From assembly GCF_037038585.1 (NCBI RefSeq), contig NC_092525.1, forward strand, positions 30,592,367 to 30,656,366: DNA of 64,000 nucleotides, in the 5' to 3' direction. This document shows, in pieces, positions 3,001 through 54,810 of the stretch. Under the pieces are notes generated by a model. It searched no databases and was not told the origin of the DNA. It worked only from the letters and a program-made list of their open reading frames with translations. Source of the DNA: Patagioenas fasciata. Taxonomy: Eukaryota > Chordata > Aves > Columbiformes > Columbidae. The position numbers were made by a program, and so were the translations under genes. The first letter of the stretch is position 1, and each line of letters opens with the position of its first letter.

Positions 3001-3966
3001 GTTATATTTATCTTTGAGGAGGGTAGACTACTTTGCACCAGCAGTTCTCATGATGCACAATCAGTGCAAAGAAATACAGAAAAAACAGAAAAGCATTTCT
3101 TATAATTATTCTTACATGAATGAGCTGTAACTTTAACTATCATCCATGGAAAAAGAGTTGTTTCTGTCCAATTTGACACAGAGCTGGATCCCATCACTCC
3201 CTACACTGGGCAGCCAACAGCAGGGCCAGCTTAGGTTGAAGCAGAGGTGGAAGGGGACTCAAAGGAGGGGGTTCCTATGGGACCAGGGGCAAAGGAGGCC
3301 AAGTTGCTGTGCACCCACATATGTGTGCTGGTGTAAACCACACCAGGAGCAGAGGAGCTGTGCCCCTGCGAGCCCACCTGTGCACACGCCAGCGACAGTC
3401 ACACTGGAGTACCGGACTTGGGAAGATGCCACCTCTTTAATAAGGCCTTGAAATTAGTTTCAAAAAGGCATGAGGGGGATTATTCAGCATCCTGCTACAA
3501 TTCTGGGAAAGCAAGCACAGTTCGGGTTTGCTCTTCACTTACATGAGTATGCTGGGAAGGTGCAGAAATGCTTGAAGGGATGAGACCAAGATTTTGCTGT
3601 CACGGAATATTAGAGCATTGGGTTCACATTGCAGATGAAGGTATAAGTTAGGTACCACATTGCTCAGTCTGACAGGACGGAGGCATTTCGAAACATGACC
3701 AGAAGCAAGATTTCAGATATCATGGGAACTTCAGTGTCAGAAATACGGGTGCCTACTAATTTAGGCCCATCAAGGGCTGAGCATCAGCCAAGTGCATATT
3801 TGGAAGAGCACAGTTTGACAGACTGAGGTGCTCAAAGTAGGACTGAGGTGTGCAGGAAATTTGGCAGTGCTTTTGCAAAATTCATCCTCATGCAAGTCAC
3901 TTACTTAAAACTCATTTTTAAGCATTCCAGTTTCTCCCTGTGGTAAAATTCAAATGTCACAATTGT
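1..3966. other. Intergenic, no gene recognised
   Basis: Mixed AT-rich sequence with a GC-rich islet at about 840-1000 and moderately GC-rich sequence near 2400-2560 and 3180-3400. No open frame here resembles a known family, and all are under 110 codons. No repeat family is recognised. Confidence 0.7.
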
Positions 3967-4074
3967 AAAAAACAAACAAACAAACCAACCAACCAATGCC
4001 ACCACCACCACAACAAAATAACCAAAACAAACAAACAAACCAAACACCAAACAAAAAAAACCCCTAACACACAA
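3967..4074 (+). repeat. A/C-rich low-complexity tract
   Basis: Imperfect (AAAC)n, (CCAA)n and (CCA)n units run together, with the A/C strand on plus. It creates spurious open frames on both strands. Confidence 0.85.
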
Positions 4075-7000
4075 ACTGTAAAACTGTGCATTCTGCTTTT
4101 CCTATGTGAAATCTGGACATTTAGTGAACTCTTTTGTTCCAGACATGTAACACAAGTACCAGCAGACATGCAAAACCCCAGCTCTATGGTCTGAGCATTT
4201 CCAATCCAGCAGCAGTCTGGAAGCAGGCAGTGGCAGGAGAAACCATGTGCTCGGGGACAAGTCTGCTCCGGTGTTGATATTTAGAAAATGTGCTGATCAG
4301 ACAACTCTTTTTTGAGCCTCCCTTCCATTTCCTGCTTTTCCTCTTCCCAGCATGCCCAGCGCAGCCCATGCCAGGACCGCAGTGCTGTGCGTCGGCGCGG
4401 TGCCCCAGCAAAGCTCCTGCAGAGCACCAGCGGCCAGCGTTGGGCAGGGTGAGCCGTGCCCTCTCTGCCCAACCTTTCACACCCTGGGGTGCCCAAGTCT
4501 TTCCCCAGCTGATCTCCACTCTCAACCTTGCATGTGACTCCAGGCTGAACAGTCACTGCTCTCCTTCAGAAACCAGCACCTGAGAAATTCTGCCCCTCTT
4601 CTAGACTTCGCTTGTGAGGGAAAGGATGCTTAAGGCTGTGGTGATTGTTTAGCAGTATCCCAGGTTACCTTTTAACACAGCATCGTCCTTCTCTTACACC
4701 CTTCTCTTACCTTACACTCCTTAGAAGACCTAACAATAGCATTGACTGTTGTGTAGCAAGACAGACAAGCTGTGTCTCAGGGTGATGGACTGGCTTACTC
4801 CACTGACTTCTACCTTCAGCAACAGGCTCCGTTTATATCAGGACATAGTTTAAAAGGAATTATCATCTTTTTAATAGATCACATACTGAGTCACAAGCTA
4901 CATATTCAACAGAAAAATCAAGCTAATTGCTCACTTCTTCTAAGATATCCCTGAAGGATAATCGAACTCTGCAGAGCTGTTTCTTAGTTGGAAACTAAAT
5001 AATTAAGCTAAAGAAATGCATTTCTCTTTCAAGTTTCTCTCTGTATTTTCTTCTATTCTCCTTCATATCAAATACTTCAGCATGAACATAAGCTATTGAC
5101 TTTAATTAAAAATTAAAATTAGCTCTACTTTGTTTTGTTAAATCCACAGCTGAAAAAATAAAAAGAGACTGTCAAGATAGAAAAAGAAAGCATTGCAACC
5201 TTTGTGCCAGTTCTCATCCCTACCCACTTATCTGGCAAATTGTGAACTTGCCGTGCAGCATCTTCTTCCTGCATGGAACTCAAGGGTCTTCAGCATGATT
5301 TACCACACGTGGACTTCAGCTCATAACAGCAGCTGCATATAATACAAACAAAGAAATAGACAGTATCATGCCATGATAGATTTGTGAAGGCCTAGAATTT
5401 GATAGAAATCTTCTTTATTAATTTTTATCTATTACTGGCTAATTGCTTACGTACTGTAAATCTGCAAAGATCAATTCTTGAAATCACCAAACAATTTGAT
5501 GGTGTGAAACACTAACAAGTCCTAATACAGTAAGAATGTTAATCGATAAGCTAAATGAAGCCTTGTATTGCCAACGATGCATGAAAATGTATTATTGTTA
5601 GGGACTACAAATATGGGTTTCACTGAAAGCAATAAAATAAAAAGCCAAGTATTTTGAGAGAAATGGAGTATAAACAGCATCTGTAAATATTGACTGTACA
5701 ATGAACTTTTTCAAACCAGCCACTTCAAGGAATAAGCCATTTCACAGAAAAGCTATTTTCTTGCATAAATAGTAAAATAAAAGAGTGCCAATTCAATAAA
5801 GGAATATTTGACAAAGGCCAACTCTGAGCTATACGGATGTAACAGAAAACCATGTTTACATATAGCAAATACTGCATTTTAAACATTTCTAAATATTTAT
5901 GTGCATATTAATATACATTAAACTTAGATAAACTTGCTTATAAACCTGCAGCCTCACCCCAGACAGAATCCTACAGCTACTCCACTCACACAACTGTGCC
6001 AAGCAAACAGAGTTACTGCAGATGTTCAGTTACTGCAGATGTTCACCGCTGTAGGAGGAAGCAGCTTCTTCACCTGCAGGCTCGCTCTACTGTATTGCAC
6101 TATGGCCACATGGAACATTCCTGCCTTCCCAAGTTTCTAACTGAATCAGATAAATGTTAAGGAAAAATGGTATTTTTAAACTGTCTGTGAGTTCTAAAAG
6201 GCCACAGAATAGTGTTCTGTTTGTAGGAACAATTTAGCTTTATTAAGCAGCATGACACAGACTAAGTGAGCTGAGACAAGCTTTGTACACCGTGTTGCAG
6301 CAGAGTCATCATCAGCAGCAGAGGCCAATCAGTTCAGAACCCGATTACCAAGAGCTGTGCTGGCATGCTGCAAGGAAAGCTGTAAAGAACACCTCACTTA
6401 CTCATCTGCAAAGCTAGACACCCCATTTCACCTCTGATACTACTGAAGGCATTTCTCATGGCAGCAGAGGTTTGGCAAACTATACTTCTCAGAAAATATT
6501 TGTGTCTTTCTCTGTTTTCATTAGACCTCTTTGCCAAACTGCCAGTTGTGAAGGTTGTTTCACTTGCACAGCATTGTTAGAATATATTTCACCAGTAGTA
6601 TAGACAGCACTTACTGTGAAATCTGTATTACTTATTTTCCTGCTGGTAGGAAAATAGACTACTTAAAACCAGTTGGGAATCTAAAGAGTTAGACCTGCTA
6701 CAGGCAGGTCTTAAATTGCTATTATAAAAAGGTCCATTAGCAGGTTTGATCTGAGCAAGGAGGGTGTGCTGGTTTACTGTATTAGTCAGAATTCTTCCCA
6801 ACTAAATTCTGCTCATGAATTTTAGAAGTATTGAATTAGAGGAATCTGGTTTTCAGGGCCAGGCATGAATACTGGGAACAGTCATATAATAATGTACTCT
6901 TATGTTTTAGGCAGAAAAAAGGAAGCATTATTCTTTCTGAACAATTTCCTTCCTCTTTAAATCTTCAGATACTCTGCTTTCTCTAAGGTCATTGCATGAA

Positions 7001-48438: not shown

Positions 48439-48708
48439 GTACATCAACTAAGTTGAAAAACTCTGGTATTAACTTGAACTTGTTTAAACAAAATGATGGT
48501 TTATCTAAACAACAGTTGAACAACAGCAGTTAGTATCACTGCTTAACTTTTTTTTTAATTATTTTTAAAACAACCAAGGAATGATAACAGCATGAGAAAA
48601 AAAAAAATAAAAACCAACAGAACACAAACTCTGGTCCCCACTTTCCTGAACAGTCAATAGGTGACAACACCAAACAATGCAATACATCCTCATTTTCAAT
48701 CTGTCTTT

Positions 48709-48841
48709 TTAAATAGTTGACTTAGAGAAAGAAACTCTCAGATGGTGGTTTTCTCCAAGATTGTAATTGTGAAGATCAATCAAAGCCTGAATAGCTTCTT
48801 CTACTGTTGACATCTGAAGAAGTGCCATCTTGTGATCTCTT
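48709..48841 (-). CDS. PTBP2: PTBP2 exon 14: end of RRM4 and stop codon
   Basis: This coding part of the last exon completes Gln and encodes 43 codons, [20 protein letters not shown] to SFSKSTI, then TAA at 48711-48709. HKMALLQM is the RNP1-like strand of RRM4. The C-terminal SFSKSTI is the family ending, so the protein is complete here. The acceptor reads ttgtttcagAAG, a NAGNAG pair: use of the first AG gives FFQRDHKM, use of the second drops the Arg and gives FFQDHKM. Both keep the frame. Confidence 0.98.
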
Positions 48842-48988
48842 CTGAAACAAAATAATGGCATTAGGGACTTGAACACTACAGGGGTTCTCCTAGTATTTGC
48901 TATTCTCCATGTACTTTTTCCTTAAGACATGCTGCAAAAAACAGTTAAGCAGTCTTCTGTTAAAGCTATGTACAGGAAAGTTACTTAC

Positions 48989-49066
48989 TGAAAAAATTTA
49001 AATGCTTTCACAGTGCCTCCAGTGTTACCAAACAATGTGCGTAGATCCTCTTCTGCTACTGATGGT
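48989..49066 (-). CDS. PTBP2: PTBP2 exon 13: RRM4 first half
   Basis: This 78-nt exon completes Pro and encodes [20 protein letters not shown] then AFKFF, ending with two bases of Gln. It covers helix 1 and strand 2 of RRM4. The acceptor is ctgtctgtag and the donor TTCA|gtaagt. FGNTGG replaces the FANTGG that I remember for the human protein. Flanking introns are very short (97 and 147 nt). Confidence 0.97.
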
Positions 49067-49163
49067 CTACAGACAGAAAGAAAACAAGCATAGTAAGAAA
49101 TTATTAGTTAATTGTGTTGCGATTCACATTAATACTACTGGTTTACGGACAGCCAACACTTAC

Positions 49164-49380
49164 GGAATATTGGACAGATGAAGTGTTGCAGAAGGAGGAA
49201 ATATATTTTGAAAGTTTTTTGAGCCAGGCTTCTTGAAGCGATGAAGAGGTGAATTTCCAAAATCTTTAGTCAGCCCTTGGTCATCAAGTCCCTCTCGAGG
49301 TAGTTGTACTGTCTGATGTTTAGAAAGAGTAACCCGAATAATCTTTCCATACATTTTTTGTCCATTAAGGTGGCTCATGG
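49164..49380 (-). CDS. PTBP2: PTBP2 exon 12: end of RRM3, linker, start of RRM4
   Basis: This 217-nt exon completes Ala and encodes 71 codons, beginning [20 protein letters not shown] and ending [11 protein letters not shown] with two bases of Pro. It carries the last helix and strand of RRM3, the fifth strand, the short linker ([20 protein letters not shown]) that packs RRM3 against RRM4 in this family, and LHLSNI, the RNP2 strand of RRM4. The acceptor is tctttttcag and the donor TTCC|gtaagt. The frame is open throughout, and no frameshift or stop is seen. Confidence 0.98.
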
Positions 49381-49768
49381 CTGAAAAAGACAAGAGGTTT
49401 ACTCAATTCAGCGTTACTTTTCAATAGCTTGTGGGACATCACACATAACCCTGGCAAACAAGAAAAAAACCCCAAGTAAATCAAAGGGTCAGTGTCCTAA
49501 AAGACTGGAATCAAGAGCTAGGTCTGCAGAATCTGCACGAATATTTATTTATTTAAAGGCCATCACATGTGATTCAGCTGCTGAATTCGTTTAGGATATT
49601 GTGCAGACCTTCTGGAATAGAAATGGATGCCATAAGACTTTGGATCTTGTGGGTAACCAGGATACAAGACAAACTGACAAATGTAAACATGCTTAGTTCA
49701 CCTGATTTTACAGAACATAATGTCAAGTACCTAGACTAATGGGAATATAAACAGAAAACTGATCTTAC

Positions 49769-49861
49769 CCAGCTGTGACTGGTTTCCATCAGTCATCTGT
49801 ATAAGAGCACTGTCTTTCTTATTGTATAAAATCTTCACACGCTGCACATCACCATAAACAC
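49769..49861 (-). CDS. PTBP2: PTBP2 exon 11: RRM3 core
   Basis: This 93-nt exon completes Gly, encodes [20 protein letters not shown] followed by [10 protein letters not shown], and leaves one base of Ala. [15 protein letters not shown] holds the RNP1-equivalent strand of RRM3, which in PTB proteins lacks the usual aromatic pair. The acceptor is gactttgaaaag and the donor CTGG|gtaaga. I recall A rather than T after IQM in the human protein, so this may be a bird-lineage difference. In the frame used when exon 10 is skipped, this exon contains the premature TGA. Confidence 0.97.
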
Positions 49862-50090
49862 CTTTTCAAAGTCAAAGGTAACCCAAAAGAAAAAGTTCAT
49901 TTTAAAGCCAGTCACCTACGTAATATATTTTGACATATTAATGGAACATTCAGACAGCAACAAGATCACTCACTCAAACTCAACACTCTCACAAATGAAT
50001 AAAGGAGATAAAGATTTTGAATAGTGAATTTTGAAAAGAATAATTTCTGATAAACCCTCAAAGCTATGTGAATGATATTAAATTAAAGAC

Positions 50091-50114
50091 CATGCAAAAA
50101 TATATTAGCATGCA
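50091..50114 (-). promoter_or_regulatory. Paired UGCAUG motifs in intron 10
   Basis: TGCATG occurs on the transcript strand at 50114-50109 and 50096-50091, about 206 and 224 nt after the exon 10 donor. UGCAUG is the Rbfox binding site; downstream sites usually promote inclusion of the upstream exon. Three further copies lie in intron 9 at 51552-51547, 51021-51016 and 50913-50908. Confidence 0.6.
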
Positions 50115-50229
50115 TTAAAAGAAAATTTGTGTCTATGGAGAGTTTTAAACAGCAAAAGAAAAATAGCAAAAGATTTACTATTCGACTTTAAGCCAAACTG
50201 CTAGCTACAAATAAGAATTAAGGTGAAAC

Positions 50230-50290
50230 AAATAAACAACAACCAAAAAAAAACACAACAAAAAAAAAACCAAACCAAAATCAAATAAAT
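50230..50290 (-). promoter_or_regulatory. U/G-rich tract downstream of exon 10 donor
   Basis: In transcript sense this is T-rich with G interruptions (TTTTTTTTTGTTGTG, TTGGTTGTTGTTT), about 30-90 nt after the 5' splice site of exon 10. U-rich tracts in this position can recruit TIA1-type or CELF/ELAVL proteins. It could equally be a plain low-complexity repeat, as similar tracts occur in other introns of this gene. Confidence 0.5.
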
Positions 50291-50320
50291 AATAAAAGTA
50301 TAGTGCTAACAATAACATAC

Positions 50321-50354
50321 CGAAGAGGGTAAACAGACTTTGGGGCGTAACCAT
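50321..50354 (-). CDS. PTBP2: PTBP2 exon 10: 34-nt regulated exon of RRM3
   Basis: The exon is exactly 34 nt and encodes MVTPQSLFTLF plus the first base of Gly, joining NLNEE to GVYGDVQ in RRM3 helix 1. Its length is not a multiple of three. Without it, exon 9 joins exon 11 and the frame reads nine codons to a TGA at 49837-49835, which lies 66 nt before the exon 11-12 junction. In mammals the matching exon is skipped when PTBP1 is abundant, sending PTBP2 mRNA to nonsense-mediated decay, and included in neurons. The acceptor is ccttctaaag and the donor TTCG|gtatgt. Flanking control signals are listed separately. Confidence 0.96.
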
Positions 50355-50425
50355 CTTTAGAAGGAGAGAAGAGCAAGCAGCGTAAGACAAGAAGAGAGAA
50401 GAGTCGAGGAAGAGCGGAGATGAAC
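50355..50425 (-). promoter_or_regulatory. CU-rich PTB-type sites and UGC motifs at exon 10 acceptor
   Basis: The transcript carries GCTCTTCC, then ACTCTTCTCTCTTCTTGTCT, then GCTCTTCTCTCCTTC directly before the acceptor. These are classic UCUU/CUCUCU-type PTB sites. Between them lies CGCTGCTTGCTC (50382-50371) with two UGC triplets, the kind of element near a 3' splice site through which SRRM4 (nSR100) activates neural exons. The layout fits repression by PTBP1 and neural activation; the binding itself is inferred. Confidence 0.75.
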
Positions 50426-50792
50426 AGATCATCCATAACGAAGGGTGGTTCCCGCAGAATGGTGAGGTGGTCATGGATCATGGTTTCAAGGCGGTTAATT
50501 GGGGCAAGTTGGTCCGAGGAACATTTTGTTCAAGCACAGAAGCATGAACATAAGGAATGAAGACAGGGAATGTGGACAAAGACGAGAAGGGTAAGACAGG
50601 GAAGGGCACGGGAATTTGGATCAAGACAAGGAAAGGGAAGTTGAACACATGGGGAAAAGGATGAAATGGGGAAGGGAAAACAGCAATGCAGAAGAAAAAA
50701 ATAAGGAAGTGGGGAACAAAAAAAAAAAAATAAAATATAGGTCAGTACATAGGAAATGCAGGAATTTGGTCAGAAAATGGTTGGTTTATGTA
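50357..50792 (-). promoter_or_regulatory. 436-nt AG-free exclusion zone before exon 10
   Basis: On the transcript strand there is no AG dinucleotide between the acceptor AG (50356-50355) and the AG at 50794-50793, while GA occurs about a dozen times in the same stretch. Long AG-free zones mark introns whose branch point is far from the exon, because a scanning spliceosome would use any intervening AG. The zone is partly CU-rich and partly mixed sequence (50420-50530) that still avoids AG. Confidence 0.9.
50741..50747 (-). promoter_or_regulatory. Predicted distant branch site TACTGAC
   Basis: The transcript reads TACTGACC followed closely by ATATTTTATTTTTTTTTTTT, a near-ideal branch motif with a polypyrimidine tract directly after it. 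The branch adenosine would be at 50742, 388 nt upstream of exon 10. A second candidate, TTCTGACC with its adenosine at 50770, lies 416 nt upstream. Both sit at the far end of the AG-free zone, as expected. Confidence 0.75.
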
Positions 50793-51671
50793 CTGTACAA
50801 GAAAAACTGAGTAAAATGTAGTCACCCAAGACAAATATGGGTAAAGTACATTCATATCAAGAGTAAACTACAGCATTTCATCTCAACATGAAAATAAATT
50901 AAAAAGGCATGCAATAGAAATTTTAAACTTTGAACTTTAACTGCGTAAGCATGGCTGGTTATGAAATGCAGGCAAAAAATCTTTCAAAATGGCACTCTGA
51001 TCTAAAACATTTTAACATGCAAGACTGTGGATGACAAAATAGTACCAGATGATAAAAAAAAAGCTTAATGATCTACAGCAACAGAGGCCAGTTAAAAATG
51101 GAACAGCTAGACTGATGCAAACTTCCCACATTTCATACCAGCTTTCACAGCCATCAAAATAAGTGTGTACAGGACAGTAAAAATGCAAAACCAAATAAAC
51201 CCCTCCAGATTTCAGAGTTAGCAAGAAAGATACAGTTAGGGTGAAAATGCTTTGCCATATTTTTTTAATTATTATTTTTTAAAGACAAATGAGTAACTGC
51301 AAAGAAAAAAATTACTAAGAGAGACTGGAAGAGTGCCTCGTCAAGATCTTTGGGAGAACCTTCAAAGAAAAATGTGTTAGAGTAGTTTACATAAATTAAG
51401 ACCTTAAAACATGAGATACAAGCATGAAATGAAACAGCAAACAATTAGAAGAAACAAAACAGAAATTCTAGTTTATGTGATTATAATTGCAAAAGAAAGC
51501 ATAGTTGGTATTTTGTAAAAATAAAGCTTTCAATTCAAATGTCAAACATGCAGTAGTTACCACATTTTTCTTAGAAAAAATAGGTAGCCGACTATCAAAG
51601 GACATTTAAAGTTGTTAGCTACCTGGGAAAACAAAAGTATTTAACAATAATGGCTTTAAGATTAACTTTGG

Positions 51672-51722
51672 GGGATTTTTTAAAAAACACAACAACAACA
51701 AAAAAAAAAAAAACACAGCAAA
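51672..51722 (+). repeat. (AAC)n / poly(A) tract in PTBP2 intron 9
   Basis: ACAACAACAACA is followed by a run of about 13 A. In transcript sense it is a U-run with UUG repeats, about 115-165 nt after the exon 9 donor. Confidence 0.8.
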
Positions 51723-51836
51723 AAATACTTTGAGCTTAAAATACAAATGTAAGAGACCAAATGCAAAGAAATCAGAAAATACTGACAAATGAAATGTGAC
51801 TAAAGAGGAAAAAAAAAGTAAAATTGTTTCACTGAC

Positions 51837-51991
51837 CTCTTCATTTAAATTGCTGACCAGAAGGACTGTGTTGCCACCAGCCGAAACTCCAGGCATTCCC
51901 ACACGGCCGGCAGCAGCGGCTGCAGCTGCAGCTGCAGCATTTGGAATAGCCAAAGGACTCAGTGCTCCTGGAACAGCTGCAACAGGAAGCC
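51837..51991 (-). CDS. PTBP2: PTBP2 exon 9: alanine-rich linker and start of RRM3
   Basis: This 155-nt exon completes a Gly codon and encodes 51 codons, from [16 protein letters not shown] through a run of ten alanines to [24 protein letters not shown] is the RNP2 strand of RRM3. The linker between RRM2 and RRM3 is unstructured in PTB proteins. The alanine run is coded by mixed GCT/GCA/GCC codons, so it is not a pure triplet repeat. The acceptor (ttttaaaattag) has a weak pyrimidine tract, and a second in-frame acceptor, tgttgcag, lies 15 nt inside the exon. The donor is GAAGAG|gtcagtga. The exon ends in phase 0, so including or skipping the next exon decides the frame. Confidence 0.97.
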
Positions 51992-54810
51992 CTAATTTTA
52001 AAATAAAGCATATTTTACGAAACACACACAAGTCGTTTAAAAACATACCTATAGCAGTAAAAGTGTTGCATACAACACTCCACAAAGCAGACCATTCCAC
52101 TGCTAAAGTGATCCAAAGGGTTGTGAAACGGGTTGTTACATTAAAATACCCAAGGGAAACACAAAAACTTTTTTGATTCAGATCAAGTCTTCAAAGGAGT
52201 GATGAGGTGTAAACCATGTTTCCTTTCCAAATGAACATTCTTGTGCACCAAAACTTTTCCCACTGTACTCCAAAATCTGTCTAGGTTATCAAAACAGTTT
52301 AAACGCTAATTGTGGTCTCTGCATCATTACACCCCTCTTGTCCATCCCCCTTTGAGAGGCATTCCTGTCTCCAACCTGACGCTTCAGACTAAACACACAC
52401 CTGAGCTGGGGATGTGAACAGGCACTACACACACTTTATGTAGGAAGAGCTTCATCCTATTTGATCAAAATTTTATTTGCACATTTTAACAGAGTTCAGT
52501 AAAAGGACACTAACATAGCAAAATGTATATAAGTGTATATAAAAACAAGAAAACAAATCCGTCGTTTTATTTTCCTTTACTGCAATTTGGTTCGCAGATT
52601 TCAGTATTTTGACAAAATTTCTAATGTGTATACGATCATGCTAACACAACTTTTGACCAACCTGTCAAGTAGACAGTCTAAATATAACCTTTACACTATG
52701 CATCTCAGACTACTTCCCTTCCCTTCCCACATGAAGTTTTATTTTAAAGAAAGTCATAAGAGAAAATTCTTCAGTTTCAGTCAGTGCCCAAATAATATTA
52801 AATGTAATTAACCCTTAATTAAAAAAAAAAAAAATCAGATTTACTGTCAAAAAGGAACACACAGGGGGACAGAAAGGGGCAGTAAGCAAGGTTGCTTTTT
52901 TAAAAAATTATTTTTTAATAAAAAAAGATGTCTAGCTCCACTCCACCTCTTTATTTATTTTGTGTTGCACAAATTCGTGAAAAATGACTAATTAAAAAAA
53001 GGGGGGGAGGGGGTGCGGGGAGAGATTTTGCTGGGCTGGACAAATGATGCCTCAAAGGCCACAGGATATCATCCATCACTACTCTGCAATAGTGCTTAAC
53101 AGTATCACTGATCAAGCATTGGAAAATATTTCCTGGTAATTTCCTATCAAAGCACATACAGAATTAGGAACGGTAAGTATTCTAAGAAAAGAAATTAAAG
53201 ATATGGAATGCTTCACAAGAAAAGTTTAAAAAGATTTAAAATGTTAGTATTCAGGGGTCAAACCAGAGGAACAGAACGTTCTGAGTAGTGACAATTCTAG
53301 TCATCTTTCATGATGGGATGAGGGATAACGTACTTGAATCAAAAGGCAACAAATACATTCTTTTTATTCCATTATATGTTGTATTTGTGGGACTGACTGC
53401 AATACAAAAACAGAAGGAAACCCCCTATCTTGTCTTCCTCTCTCCCATCCTGCAAAAACACTTAATAGATTTGAGAATGTGTTTCATGGTCTACGGAAAC
53501 AACAGGCACTTACATTAAAGAAACAATAAAGTGACACCCAATATGTTTGATCACGTAAGACAAGCAGCAGCTACCGGGGTGAAGGAAGCACTGCCCCAGG
53601 GGCGCTGCTGCATGGTCCCTGTCATGGGGCTGCACTGGGCCTGCAGGGACACAGGGGCTGTCACAGCGAGGATGTGGAATTAGAGGCACCGCCGCTAGTG
53701 GAAGCACAGCATTTCGTTTCTCAAAATCCATTTTGTGTGAAAGTGTAATACCATGCACTTATGTATATTAATAACATAATAATACATGTTTTGCTCTTGG
53801 GTTAAAGTTGAAGAATGTAGCTTTACTGTCATGAAAAAACAATTAATAAAAGATGCAGTTAAAGAAAGTATCCCTGTGGAAGAAGTAAAGAAGTTTATTC
53901 CCAAAAATCAGACTCTAATACACAGGGAAACTTGTGAATATAAAATGAAACTCCTCAAACAACTTAAACACCCCCCAGCTATGTTCTAAAAAAAAAAAAA
54001 AAAGTACTTTTGAGTTCTTTTATTGTACATGCTGAATGTCACATTTATTTACACTCGGCTACTGCAGAGGTCACACAGACAGAAACGTGAAGAATGACAG
54101 TCCAGTGTGACAGACATCCACCTGAAGGGAAACAACTTATTTTATACTAGGTCAACAACAATCATTTCGGTATTAGAAAATGCCAAGATAGTAGAGCATT
54201 TCAAATCTTCTAATGTGCCTAACCACCTTTTTGTAGCCTTAGAAGCTTTAAGCCAGTCCAGCACTTTAGGAATAAAGGAATTTAAAGATGACTAGTGAAG
54301 TTTTTACAGCTCTTTCCATAGTTGGGCAGAGCATAGCTGAGTAATTCATACTTTTAAAGAGCAAAATTCTTCATAGTATCAAACTCTCTACAGGACATTC
54401 TTTGGTTCCACTGAAGTAGTTAAAAACAAAGATTAATTCAACACCATTCATATAGAAATATTTTCAATTATTATCCTTCGAAACAGACTAAATTAATAAG
54501 AATCTTAAGAAGGGGCATTAGTGGAAAGTGCTAATAAAAGCAAGCCAGGGATGACAGCAAGGGATAAAGCTGTGGGCGCCCTAACCACAACAATATATTT
54601 ACACTTGTTATATTAAACAAATATCTAAAGTGGAGTTAAAGTATTATTACATATTAGTATTTGCAATTATAAGCAGTTCTTATATAAAATATTTTGGCTT
54701 CTGAAGTTCAGTATAATACAGTTGCTGTTTATTCCAAGGTTTTTTCCTGTAATATCGCCTGTAACTTTTTTATTGTGGGGAGAATGCGTATAACTTTTCC
54801 TATGTGAGAT

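Follow-up and report, generated by a model that had tools for sequence, protein, structure and literature searches.

The intron that precedes the 34-nt exon 10 of PTBP2 in Patagioenas fasciata carries no AG dinucleotide over several hundred nucleotides ahead of its acceptor, raising the question of where the branch point of this exon lies. The window (the whole 64-kb stretch of DNA that was analysed) holds the 3' part of the gene, exons 9 to 14, on the minus strand (Table 1). Exon numbers count from human exon 10, and positions with a sign are counted upstream (-) or downstream (+) from exon 10. The peptide joined from the window scored 443 bits against PDB 2mju (PTBP2) and 380 bits against 2adc (PTBP1); on this similarity the gene appears to be the PTBP2 orthologue, being closer to PTBP2 than to PTBP1. 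Exon 10 is followed by a donor GT at 50320 (minus strand), and the reading frame is kept from exon 9 to exon 11 if exon 10 is included. If exon 10 is skipped, the frame runs into a TGA within exon 11 (49837-49835), which leaves 66 nt to the exon 11/12 junction, with further junctions downstream. An AS-NMD switch exon is one whose skipping brings in a premature stop before later junctions, and skipping of this 34-nt exon would bring in such a stop. At the other end of the gene, a CAGAAG tandem acceptor at exon 14 (48839-48844, minus strand) would add or omit an arginine in RRM4; according to the available text of PMC3250501, this tandem acceptor is deeply conserved and chicken ESTs show both forms.

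Table 1. Features of the PTBP2 locus and of its PTBP1 paralog. Positions refer to the window except where the PTBP1 locus (L016) is named.
Feature	Position	Strand	Basis or remark
PTBP2 exon 9, 155 nt	51837..51991	-	translation and splice signals
AG exclusion zone, PTBP2 exon 10	50357..50792	-	read and counted directly; 436 nt, no AG
TTCTGAC, second distant candidate	50769..50775	-	adenosine 50770 = -416
TACTGAC, predicted main branch site	50741..50747	-	adenosine 50742 = -388
T-rich tract just 3' of TACTGAC	50718..50739	-	sequence; likely U2AF-binding polypyrimidine tract
Branch-point/pyrimidine-tract block homologous to PTBP1 intron	50696..50757	-	local score 40 vs maximum 34 in 500 shuffles
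Proximal intron block homologous to PTBP1 intron	50355..50523	-	local score 90 vs maximum 35 in 500 shuffles
Acceptor AG of exon 10	50355..50356	-	sequence TTCTAAAG, then ATGG
PTBP2 34-nt cassette exon 10, peptide MVTPQSLFTLF	50321..50354	-	splice signals, frame with exons 9 and 11, 2mju match
Two TGCATG (RBFOX-type) motifs, downstream intron	50091..50114	-	+207 and +225, 18 nt apart
PTBP2 exon 11, 93 nt	49769..49861	-	frame calculation, position check
PTBP2 exon 12	49380-49164	-	
PTBP2 exon 13	49066-48989	-	
PTBP2 exon 14	48841-48709	-	
PTBP1 AG-free zone, 453 nt	L016:3279-3733		67 N inside, -346 to -280

The original prediction, which was made from the letters of the sequence, held that the transcript strand lacks AG for 436 nt next to exon 10 and that GA occurs there about a dozen times. 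A direct count agreed exactly, with 0 AG and 12 GA. The length is 436 nt as an AG-free run and 438 if taken as the difference between the AG positions at -440 and -2. Neither strand of the window has a longer stretch without AG; the runners-up are 192 nt (plus strand) and 126 nt (minus strand). Upstream of the zone the next AGs stand at -440, -454 and -515, and the dinucleotide occurs at ordinary frequency beyond it (nine in 50793-50992). At five other PTBP2 acceptors, with the last 12 nt of each intron skipped, the first upstream AG was found at -59, -56, -23, -70 and -28. The 192-nt run of the plus strand (3931-4122), the second longest of the window, overlaps an A/C-rich tandem repeat at 4006-4059. 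A wrong-frame ORF of 82 codons (50284-50529, minus strand) extends over the zone and exon 10; it arises because the absence of AG also means the absence of TAG stops, and it is a trap for gene finders. A coding or alternative exon within the zone, using this open frame (50529-50284), was considered and rejected, there being no upstream acceptor inside the zone.

Potential branch sites were ranked by scoring the adenosines from -455 to -9 with the two matrices printed in Gooding 2006 (its Table 2 and its Table 3, the latter from 19 sites). The two highest Table 2 scores belong to TTCTGAC at -416 (7.37 bits, 6.14 by Table 3) and TACTGAC at -388 (7.33 bits, 6.61 by Table 3), and the third to a mid-zone adenosine, TCTTGAT at -267 (6.16 and 3.01). 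Adenosines that score at least as high as TACTGAC make up 59 of the 38,846 in the window, both strands counted; about 0.1 would therefore be expected among the 71 adenosines of the zone, and two were found. Both distal sites had been singled out beforehand, one as a TACTGAC with a long T run, its adenosine 388 nt from the exon, and the other as a second CTGAC at 416 nt, and both descriptions hold. The T run consists of 13 T (50730-50718) and begins 12 nt after the -388 adenosine. The earlier remark that distant branch points have been proposed for mammalian PTB-family exons is also correct: in Gooding 2006, human nPTB appears with an AG exclusion zone 438 long and with its branch point predicted at -389 (PMC1431707, in its available text). 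For PTBP2 the idea is therefore not an open one and has been in print since 2006.

A search of the same genome returned a second place, C34:4745041-4745285, that is 72% alike. This locus is PTBP1: when its exon was joined, by analogy, with the next two exon pieces, the product gave 179 bits to 1qm9 (PTBP1) vs 153 bits to 4cq1 (PTBP2). The exon likewise measures 34 nt (peptide RVTPQCLFILF) and has an AG-free zone of its own. From the composition of the 386 determined bases, the probability of finding no AG there is 9e-7; the second longest AG-free run in the locus is 142. Of 112 adenosines scored (heptamers containing N were skipped), the top one belongs to a TACTGAC at -402 that a T-rich tract follows, so the identical heptamer stands at -388 in PTBP2 and at -402 in PTBP1. 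The next adenosines are those of TATTAAC at -158 (5.94) and ATCTGAC at -440 (5.36), and TCCTTAC at -46 is a weak proximal candidate, with 4.01 bits from Table 2 and 5.13 from Table 3.

Local alignment of both introns recovered two homologous blocks (Table 1), of which the proximal one spans the last ~170-190 nt of the intron. By BLASTN, with the exon and its downstream flank in the alignment, it is 72% identical (185/258 positions, 29 gaps), and with gaps counted the identity is 104/192 columns. No likeness between the paralogs was found in the stretch between the two blocks, no homology in the 850 nt upstream of the zones (33/200 shuffles reach the score), and little likeness in the downstream intron (9/200 shuffles as good). 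The determined middle of the PTBP1 zone (L016:3455-3541) is an 87-nt A-rich stretch; because it holds no G, its lack of AG has another cause than that of the pyrimidine-rich middle of PTBP2. The same-genome PTBP1 zone and its two intron blocks homologous to PTBP2 are new here. The conservation of the proximal block between the paralogs is not explained by a branch point alone and likely reflects a regulatory role. We are evenly divided on whether the 3' intron module as a whole, branch block and final ~170 nt together, is older than the PTBP1/PTBP2 duplication and has been kept homologous, with a further conserved function of the proximal block such as a shared repressor/activator sensor; the further function would follow from both genes having kept the module as homologous intron since the duplication.

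If the branch point is distant, either of the two distal adenosines could serve, and in one variant of this reading, whose probability overlaps with that of the reading as a whole, -416 would be the main site or would share the load with -388. This variant draws on the top Table 2 score of -416, on the AG exclusion running to -438, past the need of a branch at -388, and on PTBP1, which also has a TCTGAC upstream of its TACTGAC, at -440. We consider it rather unlikely, as the 30 nt behind -416 are only 67% pyrimidine vs 87% (70% T) behind -388, and among -416, -388 and -267 a strongly T-rich tract directly follows -388 only. The Table 3 score of -416 is also the lower of the two, the human prediction was -389 (PMC1431707), and the homologous paralog block starts at -403, so that it holds TACTGAC and excludes the -416 site.

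The loose branch-site consensus is yUnAy, and two adenosines within 60 nt of exon 10 could offer a conventional main branch point, in which case the AG-free span would be a side effect of a regulatory region that is pyrimidine-rich and conserved. These are CCTCGAC at -50, the best in this range by Table 2 (2.93, and 2.91 by Table 3), and GTCTTAC at -29, which fits the loose consensus and scores 1.75 by Table 2 but 5.13 on the 19-site matrix, not far under the 6.61 of TACTGAC. PTBP1 likewise has a proximal CTTAC, at -46. According to the available text of Corvelo 2010, the branch point of an exon with a long AG-free zone is sometimes a nearer one, an example being MBNL1 exon 8, whose zone is 134 and which uses -51/-64 (PMC2991248); the length of a zone is no proof by itself that its farthest site is used. 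Even so, a conventional branch point at exon 10 strikes us as distinctly improbable. By Table 2 both proximal sites fall far below the 7.33 of -388, and a conventional branch would leave zero AG in about 390 nt unneeded. The -29 adenosine aligns with a C in PTBP1, and this argues against a single proximal branch point conserved in both genes; turnover of proximal branch sites between the paralogs may have taken place, because PTBP1 has a weak proximal candidate of its own at -46. In human PTB exon 11, moreover, a high-scoring site at -51 was dispensable, its mutation having no effect (PMC1431707, available text).

The absence of AG is in part due to pyrimidine richness. The zone is 73% pyrimidine, and because of this only about 7.5 AG are expected by composition. 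From -103 to -202 the pyrimidine content is lower, at 62%. If the bases are shuffled inside 30-nt blocks, zero AG results in 2/20,000 cases, and the hypergeometric P for no AG is 1.9e-4 across the whole zone, 0.0012 for -387 to -3 alone and 0.0023 for the less pyrimidine-rich part from -202 to -53. That a pyrimidine-rich or repeat-derived tract merely happens to be without AG is hardly credible: this would suit the composition and the stretch from -341 to -173, where the absence of AG taken alone is not significant (P = 0.12), but zero AG occurred in just 3 of 20,000 whole-zone shuffles, no tandem repeat is reported within the zone, the human zone is of the same length (PMC1431707), and PTBP1 has a separate AG-free zone.

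With these alternatives weighed, we consider it highly probable that PTBP2 exon 10 is spliced from a distant branch point, at either -388 or -416. The match to the human prediction within one nucleotide and the PTBP1 zone of the same genome make this the best reading. That the AG-free zone implies a branch point about 390 nt out, as first put forward, is too strong a wording for it, and the preference for -388 over -416 is one that we infer. U2 snRNP and U2AF would assemble at TACTGAC and the T-rich tract behind it, with TTCTGAC as a likely minor or alternative site. Step 1 at the distant site would occur without an acceptor AG, and in step 2 the spliceosome would take the first downstream AG, that of the exon 10 acceptor; because the first AG downstream would be the one used, the next ~385 nt would have to stay free of AG. 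PTB-family repressors would probably find room to bind in the pyrimidine-rich span, leading to skipping of the exon, a frame shift, the stop in exon 11 and NMD, so that PTBP2 would stay off where PTBP1 is abundant. For the bird, branch-point use, PTB binding and repression, and NMD are proposed by analogy with human work in which they were shown or predicted.

Other elements around exon 10 may add to its regulation. UGC motifs lie at -25 and -21, and we take them to be reminiscent of an SRRM4-type enhancer, as a candidate. Among eight PTB-type motifs counted in the zone, only TCTTC is clearly denser (6 vs ~3 by composition), and the seven others are near or under the composition expectation; we draw no evidence for PTB binding from this count. 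The TGCATG pair of the downstream intron has a P of about 0.02 by strand density, and the upstream intron holds three more TGCATG (51552, 51021 and 50913). The pair resembles the two RBFOX2 motifs of the downstream intron of human PTBP2, which act on human exon 10 (PMC8455679, available text).

An RNA structure that draws the branch point near the exon was considered and rejected, as the whole zone is without excess stability (z = 0.33), and no Rfam family matched at gathering score in 48500-52200. Both paralogs have a similar stem in their minimum-energy folds, at 50422-50496 (minus strand; -142 to -68) in PTBP2 and L016:3575-3664 in PTBP1. Its arms pair AUCCAUGAC with GUUAUGGAU in PTBP2 and UCCA/CAAC with GUUG/UGGA in PTBP1. 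Neither segment is more stable than its shuffles (z = -0.36 and 0.25), the centroid fold of PTBP1 differs from the minimum-energy stem, and folding of the alignment of both paralogs proposed other helices, with double changes in 0/8 pairs and 41/300 column shuffles as good. The common stem is a weak lead.

Among the literature matches listed, none concerned the PTBP2 branch point in birds; a chicken spleen study merely cites a paper on PTBP2 exon 10 (PMC8701255, available text). The available parts of PMC5062968, PMC5224494, PMC8894380, PMC4365034 and PMC3464207 hold no mapped PTBP2 branch point, and for six DNA words drawn from zone and exon the only literature matches were three unrelated papers. 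A pattern scan of viral contigs returned no match. A pattern scan of genome contigs returned 13 loci, bacterial or archaeal, and among the matches listed similarity to the region was at most 51 nt, the best being a 24-nt match (L006) that overlaps the search pattern itself.

Compared with known systems, the locus has several properties of the distant-branch class. Such exons have an AG-free zone of at least 150 nt, found in 165/67,334 exons of the Gooding 2006 set (PMC1431707, available text) and 436 nt long here. They also have, towards the 5' end of that zone, a high-scoring site with a polypyrimidine tract next to it (here -416 and -388, ranks 1 and 2) and an ordinary AG frequency upstream, as in the bird. 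Exons of this class lack a good conventional branch site close by; here such a site is poor by Table 2, yet not by Table 3. Rat alpha-tropomyosin exon 3 and alpha-actinin, as described in the available text of Gooding 2006, are alike in their AG-independent step 1, in scanning to the first AG and in having regulatory elements between branch and exon; some distant-branch cases differ in that the outcome is a choice between mutually exclusive exons and not skipping to NMD. In tropomyosin minigenes inserted AGs were used in vitro, and in cells the product was undetectable at the usual cycle numbers (PMC1431707). For variant callers and annotators, AG-creating changes hundreds of bases from exon 10 may matter.

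Human PTBP1 exon 11 is the paralogous exon and resembles bird PTBP2 exon 10 in having a UACUGAC towards the far end of its zone (381 in length), a U-rich tract and NMD-coupled skipping. It differs in being from another gene and in its shorter distance, -351, where mutation of the UACUGAC abolished inclusion (PMC1431707, available text); the site of bird PTBP1 lies at -402. Within this one genome the two paralogs are still recognisably homologous at the distant branch block and in the intron next to the exon, the upstream intron having drifted.

The closest system is human nPTB/PTBP2 exon 10, the same gene and exon. According to the available text of Spellman 2007, PTB represses this exon in HeLa cells, the skipped form undergoes NMD, the exon lies inside an ultraconserved element, and a length of 34 nt, as in the bird, is implied by the comparison with ROD1 exon 2 (PMC1940037). 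For exon 10 of PTBP3 (ROD1) Spellman 2007 gives a conventional branch point, at -21, and a short AG-free zone would be expected there. The zone measures 438 in human vs 436-438 in the bird, and the branch point is predicted at -389 vs -388, a comparison of printed human numbers with a bird locus known from sequence alone. The published human prediction is thereby extended to a bird with its spacing almost unchanged, and the arrangement is a clear example of an already known case, the bird copy of the human prediction of 2006.
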